Below, piece after piece: positions 19,778 to 20,554 of a DNA stretch of 40,204 nucleotides. Made by a program: the position numbers and the translations under genes. Numbering within the stretch: the stretch's first letter is position 1; each line of letters starts with the position of its first letter. The notes below the pieces were generated by a model that had not been told where the DNA came from, made no database searches, and saw nothing but the letters and a program-made list of their open reading frames with translations. This stretch comes from Halobacteriales archaeon SW_5_70_135 (GTDB lineage: Archaea > Halobacteriota > Halobacteria > Halobacteriales > SW-7-71-33): assembly GCA_003022865.1 (NCBI GenBank), contig PXSK01000017.1:1-40204 (forward strand). Reading direction: 5' to 3'.

Positions 19778-20110
19778 TCAGGACTCGCGTCACCTGTGGC
19801 CGCACTCCACACAGGTGAACAGCCGCACCTCGTGGGAGCTGCCGGGCTTCGACAGCGTCTCGTAGCAGACTCGGTCGCCGTCGCAGTCCTCGGCCGGACG
19901 GGACTCCTCCACCGTCTCGGTGGCGTCCTGGGTCGCGTCGGCCACGGCGGGTGCCCCGTCGTCGCGCTGTCCGTTCCGAGTCGCCATCGCCGTCTCCGCC
20001 TCCGGGTCCCGCAGCGCCTCGCTCTCACAGACGTGACACACCCACGTCTCGCCCGCCGTGTGCGTCAGCGAACCACACTCGTCACAGAATCGCGTCTCGA
20101 CCAGTGGCAC
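19778..20110 (-). pseudogene. Decaying TFS/RPB9-like transcription factor S paralogue (nonsense mutation)
   Basis: Haloarchaeal TFS-like protein with two zinc-ribbon halves. The N-terminal ribbon is intact (CDECGSL ... CHVCES) and the family core GAPAVADATQDATETVEE is present. The C-terminal ribbon is damaged: the usual E-C-P-A-x-D-C reads ESRPAEDC, so the first zinc ligand is missing. The frame stops right after CVECGHR, where a TGA (19792-19790) replaces the expected TGG Trp; the next codons read Arg-Glu-Ser-stop (19789-19778), restoring the family ending WRES. The only plausible start is GTG 20110, since family members begin with ATG just before the FCDECG motif. Three independent lesions suggest a pseudogene; a short 106-residue product remains possible. 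TFS proteins stimulate RNA-polymerase transcript cleavage. Confidence 0.68.
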
Positions 20111-20338
20111 GCGGTCGTCGGACAGACGCCTCGACCCGGTCTGTCGTGGAGCGACGACCGCTCGGGCCGACCGGACGGACCCGTGACCGCCGTCCGCGCA
20201 GGACTCGCGTCCCGCACTCGGCACGGTCGCCCGCGAGGACGTGCCCGACGGGACGCGAGCGTCCGACGCCGGGCCGATGACCCCTATCCTTTTTGTCGCC
20301 GGGCGCCTCGCTCGGGGCATGACGACAGGTGAACGCGC

Positions 20339-20554
20339 ATGAAAGAGGACTTGATGGACATCCTCTGCTGTCCGCTCGACAAGGCCGAGCTCGAACTCGA
20401 CGCCGAGGAGCGCGACGAGCACGAGGACGAAGTCGAGGTCGTCGAGGGGACGCTGCGCTGCACCGAGTGTGGAGAGACCTACCCCGTCGAGGACGGCATC
20501 CCGAACCTCCTCCCGCCGGACATGCGCGAGGAGGGCGAGGAGGCCTCCGCGTAG
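20339..20554 (+). CDS. Trm112-like methyltransferase activator
   Basis: 71-residue zinc-finger protein: MKEDLMDILCCPLDKAELEL, an acidic insert, then LRCTECGETYPVEDGIPNLL, the classic Trm112 pattern with CC-P and C-x2-C. Archaeal Trm112 binds and activates several class I methyltransferases acting on tRNA, rRNA and release factor aRF1. The start ATG 20339 is typical. The next gene begins with GTG 5 bases after the stop, so the two are probably co-transcribed. Confidence 0.9.
   Translation: MKEDLMDILCCPLDKAELELDAEERDEHEDEVEVVEGTLRCTECGETYPVEDGIPNLLPPDMREEGEEASA

Follow-up and report, generated by a model that had tools for sequence, protein, structure and literature searches.

A probable pseudogene of a DE-less, TFS-like zinc-ribbon gene family in Halobacteriales archaeon SW_5_70_135

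The window analyzed here, the whole 40,204-nucleotide stretch of contig PXSK01000017.1, contains a minus-strand frame of 105 codons running from 20095 to 19781 and broken by a single TGA at codon 102. Is this a gene caught in the act of dying, as an initial annotation supposed, a shortened protein still in service, or the remains of a gene lost some time ago? The translation ends in RLFTCVECGHR, followed by the TGA, RES and a further TGA (Table 1), the Trp-to-stop change described in that annotation. The evidence from sequence comparison points to a pseudogene of a haloarchaeal TFS-like accessory gene, encoding a zinc-ribbon protein of a kind that lacks the catalytic DE pair, a reading to which we give a probability of roughly 0.93.

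The identity of the frame is well defined. The stretch preceding the stop shares ~57-73% identity with haloarchaeal members of the family along ~100 residues, a level that excludes chance, and the family profile (A1) matches it from position 1 to 104 of 104 (G000:C17:19781-20092; E 2.9e-48, 163.5 bits) with one TGA inside. Across the 392 genomes searched within the order, 137 copies from 131 other genomes outscored it, as counted by hand. It is thus the lowest scorer of 138 strong matches, which are defined as those down to and including the window copy, and the only one of them with an internal stop. Pfam and NCBIfam models assign the window copy only weakly, to RPB9-type zinc ribbons and TFS, and its score against the canonical TFS model TIGR01384 (20.8 bits) lies below the cut-off of 64.75.

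Comparison with 47 relatives, those left after removal of duplicates and canonical TFS (the first alignment held 20 rows), locates the lesions. The window copy lacks the intact start, the full set of eight cysteines and the C-terminal Trp that mark a live member, and it is classed here as a family pseudogene because its start, Cys66 and Trp102 have been replaced. Of the 47 relatives, 38 end precisely in WRES. Loss of the ATG and of the first C-ribbon Cys, both recognized in the initial annotation, is as real as the stop. The end coordinate given there, 20110, belongs to a GTG in the same frame, five codons ahead of the ancestral start; absent from that annotation's list were the neutral-looking substitutions and the loss of the promoter core. 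This core, a putative archaeal promoter of TATA/BRE type, has the pattern TTAACACATAT (and near forms) at -38 to -40 from the ATG in 38/47 relatives, the remaining nine having mostly near variants as judged by eye; the window copy has no such element ~38 bases upstream of its start. Altogether, the copy has lost its promoter core and start codon, one zinc ligand of the C-ribbon, two residues of the hairpin and the conserved Trp. Counting against the pseudogene reading, there are no frameshifts or indels across the 105 codons, an absence somewhat unexpected in an old pseudogene.

Table 1. Features of the locus, in window coordinates.
Feature	Position	Strand	Basis or remark
Probable pseudogene, haloarchaeal DE-less TFS-like family	19781..20095	minus	~57-73% identity to family relatives and profile match
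Ancestral start (ACG), last codon (Ser) and stop (TGA)	ACG 20095-20093; TGA 19780-19778	minus	
TGA replacing invariant Trp102 codon	19790..19792	minus	Trp in 47/47 relatives
CGT (Arg) replacing Cys66, first Cys of C-terminal zinc ribbon	19898..19900	minus	Cys in 47/47 relatives
ACG replacing ancestral ATG start	20093..20095	minus	ATG in 47/47 relatives
Decayed promoter core, TCGAGGCGTCTGT vs TTAACACATATAT in relatives	20122..20134	minus	adjacent bases still match on both sides
In-frame GTG, possible only as a substitute start	20108..20110	minus	no evidence of use
Trm112-like gene, divergent from the pseudogene	20339-20554		

The pattern of substitution looks like that of a sequence free of constraint. 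Eight of the 40 columns that are invariant among the 47 relatives are broken in the window copy (M1, M11, S22, C66, A76, P82, G86 and W102); in leave-one-out controls on these columns, one relative breaks two, six break one and the others none. Measured against the family consensus, which serves as a stand-in for the ancestor, its 46 changes are spread evenly over the codon positions (17/14/15), and the differences from the nearest relative by DNA number 14/13/14 at positions 1/2/3; in the 15 most divergent relatives, position 3 holds 38-64% of the differences. Nonsynonymous to synonymous changes from consensus stand at 34:12, vs 431:391 pooled over the 47 others (Fisher p 0.006), a comparison in which the pooled relatives are not independent and, because they share ancestry, exaggerate the sample size; against three similarly divergent copies (L016, L018 and L019) p is 0.018. 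The expectation for an unconstrained sequence is ~3.3 to 1. Within the window copy, the N-ribbon accounts for 11:0 of these changes, the linker for 9:6 and the C-ribbon for 13:6, and one nonsense change is seen where ~2 are expected in 46 neutral changes. In another copy, L017, the promoter region is altered too, and its high ratio (14:3 at well-supported sites) suggests that it may be decaying as well.

A recent stop in a live gene was considered and is ruled out by the promoter, start and codon-position results. The initial annotation thus appears to have been right about the death of the gene and mistaken about its timing: after all the losses listed above, and with changes spread evenly over codon positions, the copy would have been dead for some time already. 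That annotation also proposed a truncated dominant-negative form. In a rival reading of this kind, the shortened frame, expressed from the upstream GTG, would yield an N-ribbon-only protein that competes with TFS, whether as a dominant negative or in the manner of TFS2. All four cysteines of the N-terminal ribbon are still present, a point that also tells against the pseudogene reading, a GTG is available in frame, and natural TFS paralogues without a C-ribbon are known, crenarchaeal TFS2 being so described in the available text of PMC5715097. Such a competitor is nevertheless very unlikely, given that the family promoter core and ATG are destroyed, that the 11 amino-acid-changing and 0 silent changes in the N-ribbon give no sign of purifying selection, and that an internal stop occurs in 0/137 better-scoring copies.

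An error of sequencing or assembly might instead have created the stop in an otherwise live gene, and the assembly is indeed fragmented (43 contigs) and 63% complete. A single base error cannot, however, account for the loss of the promoter core, the ATG, Cys66 and five more invariant residues, and the even codon-position spread would be left unexplained. The adjacent Trm112 gene looks normal, with 1 of 29 invariant columns broken, the same as in three of its 11 relatives, indicating that the locus is not generally error-ridden; we regard an error as highly improbable. Finally, readthrough or recoding of the TGA would restore a full WRES-like tail, and the family's RES-stop does persist beyond it, but three codons past one substitution would often survive by chance and the remaining lesions would have no explanation. 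We know of no recoding of TGA as Trp in haloarchaea, and this last reading is scarcely credible.

Under the pseudogene reading, the lineage would have stopped needing the gene, after which mutations would have piled up unselected, with transcript cleavage presumably retained by two intact TFS genes. A search for intact TFS genes in the same assembly, with alignment, recovered two that carry the catalytic ADE motif, L002 (104 aa) and L003, in agreement with the earlier suggestion of a redundant TFS paralogue. At this level of completeness, another intact family copy may sit in the missing part of the genome. In the only other genome of the taxonomic family, the best match is no stronger than E 1.3e-19, the level of a canonical TFS gene.

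Common descent of the locus was considered. An intact family copy lies divergent from Trm112, as in the window, in one genome (G043); this arrangement is absent from the other 10 genomes checked, which include the only other genome of the taxonomic family. The tree does not group the window and G043 copies and is poorly supported, placing the window copy with L044 at 46% bootstrap. Elsewhere, DNA similarity among family loci runs into the non-coding flanks to a varying extent. Between some genera these flanks are ~90% conserved at unrelated sites (L031 1270-2200 and homologous stretches in other loci); their ends vary, and they contain internal deletions. The downstream flank was considered as an independent repeat, that is, a mobile element, and this was rejected: across 146 genomes, all 19 places, in 16 genomes, lie within ~150 bases of a family gene. 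No inverted repeats were found in the family-gene unit, and viral copies were sought without a match in 50,697 phage records and two viral-contig scans.

Intact family sites are scattered over chromosomes and plasmids and are unrelated to each other. Six genomes hold two strong copies each (G113:C4, G141, G236, G221, G214 and G301), those of G113 lying on one contig ~116 kb apart with equal scores. Of 25 plasmid records found, 18 hold near-full-length copies at least 78% identical to the query, and four intact plasmid loci read with their annotation share no neighbours. We read the family, from these sequence comparisons, as a single-gene unit with its own promoter that has spread horizontally. 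In one genome, a DE-less family-type gene is followed by a tandem CX4C TFS with an ADE motif (L084, G186:C8:199900-202200), a pair that may survive from the duplication at the family's origin.

Judged by sequence, the family gene has died independently elsewhere too. The G227 copy is frameshifted at the C-ribbon's last Cys pair, the G289 and G157 copies are missing their 5' parts, and a second G131 copy and that of G222 are frameshifted, the latter with a stop as well. On pNRC200 of the model organism Halobacterium salinarum, a copy lying among insertion sequences (L072) has a frameshift and 3' loss and keeps promoter-like sequence, and a Halorubrum ezzemoulense plasmid holds a family relic with stops. 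These further broken copies show that the group commonly loses the family gene, although no rate is derivable because they were chosen from the weak and partial matches. A 5'-truncated copy, L081 (G157:C3:59300-61000), follows, in the same reading frame, coding-like sequence similar to that of a different protein, and a fusion product is conceivable there.

The live relatives probably bind RNA polymerase via the secondary channel, by analogy with TFS, and their missing DE pair suggests that they would be unable to stimulate RNA cleavage. No study of the live family's function was among the papers listed in literature searches. A predicted structure of the intact protein, of modest confidence (pLDDT 72.9, pTM 0.39) and used only to check fold class, retrieved RPB9/RPA12/RPC11-type subunits first in a fold search, with TFS4 (7oqy) at E 0.033. 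We offer tentatively, and as rather doubtful, a scenario in which the live family derives from TFS, has lost cleavage activity, has spread horizontally and now regulates or inhibits haloarchaeal RNA polymerase in parallel with TFS4. Its product being costly, or useful only sometimes, the gene would be acquired together with its promoter and lost again many times over, and the copy in the window would represent one of several independent deaths. Inhibition by the family is a conjecture, since the three tip lysines of TFS4 are absent from it. A dead accessory gene alone is ordinary, and its interest lies in pointing to a widespread and little-studied haloarchaeal family of DE-less TFS-like proteins, which can be tested in genetically tractable haloarchaea. 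Should the live protein prove to act on RNA polymerase, a cleavage factor would have become a regulator for a second time, independently. For annotation, 19781-20110 should not be listed as a working RNA polymerase subunit M.

Intact relatives of the window copy appear in RefSeq as haloarchaeal 'DNA-directed RNA polymerase subunit M' or 'RPA12/RPB9/RPC11 RNA polymerase family protein' (e.g. WP_253484463.1 and WP_258303663.1). These proteins are of the same family and length (~105 aa), with two zinc ribbons, the second of CX4C type, a PKPGGSYEVRLFTC hairpin and a WRES-type tail; the window copy differs in having no promoter core, ATG, Cys66 or Trp102 and no visible constraint. Canonical TFS (TIGR01384; L002 and L003) shares with the family the two zinc ribbons, and is similar to it in length, N-ribbon and C-terminal Cys-pair/Trp-Arg motif. 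In contrast to it, the intact members have no DE pair (absent in 47/47), CX4C in place of CX2C, and a C-ribbon whose second and third Cys are separated by 23 residues in all 47, vs 24 in the two canonical TFS for which this was measured (L002 and L020). The first intact member scores 38.8 bits against the TIGR01384 cut-off of 64.75. At the tip of the C-ribbon, the window copy reads KPGSSHE and its relatives KPGGSYE, while the genome's own TFS (L002) reads RAADESE.

A parallel is offered by Sulfolobus TFS4, which the available texts of PMC5715097 and PMC7289017 present as a DE-less TFS paralogue with a shortened C-ribbon hairpin, the features shared with the haloarchaeal family. The two differ at the hairpin tip, where TFS4 has three lysines, according to the portion of PMC5715097 available, and the family carries a single Lys within a Pro/Gly turn, short of the two or more that characterize TFS4. 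The NCBIfam TFS4 model likewise matches the first family member only in the N-ribbon, at 22.8 bits vs a cut-off of 120. In the same portion of PMC5715097, tfs-like genes are described as having multiplied independently in Halobacteria, among others. Induction by virus infection is a further trait by which TFS4 is characterized. TFS4 itself inhibits RNA polymerase, illustrating that loss of the DE pair and shortening of the hairpin are compatible with an inhibitory role (PMC5715097 and PMC7289017, within the text available).
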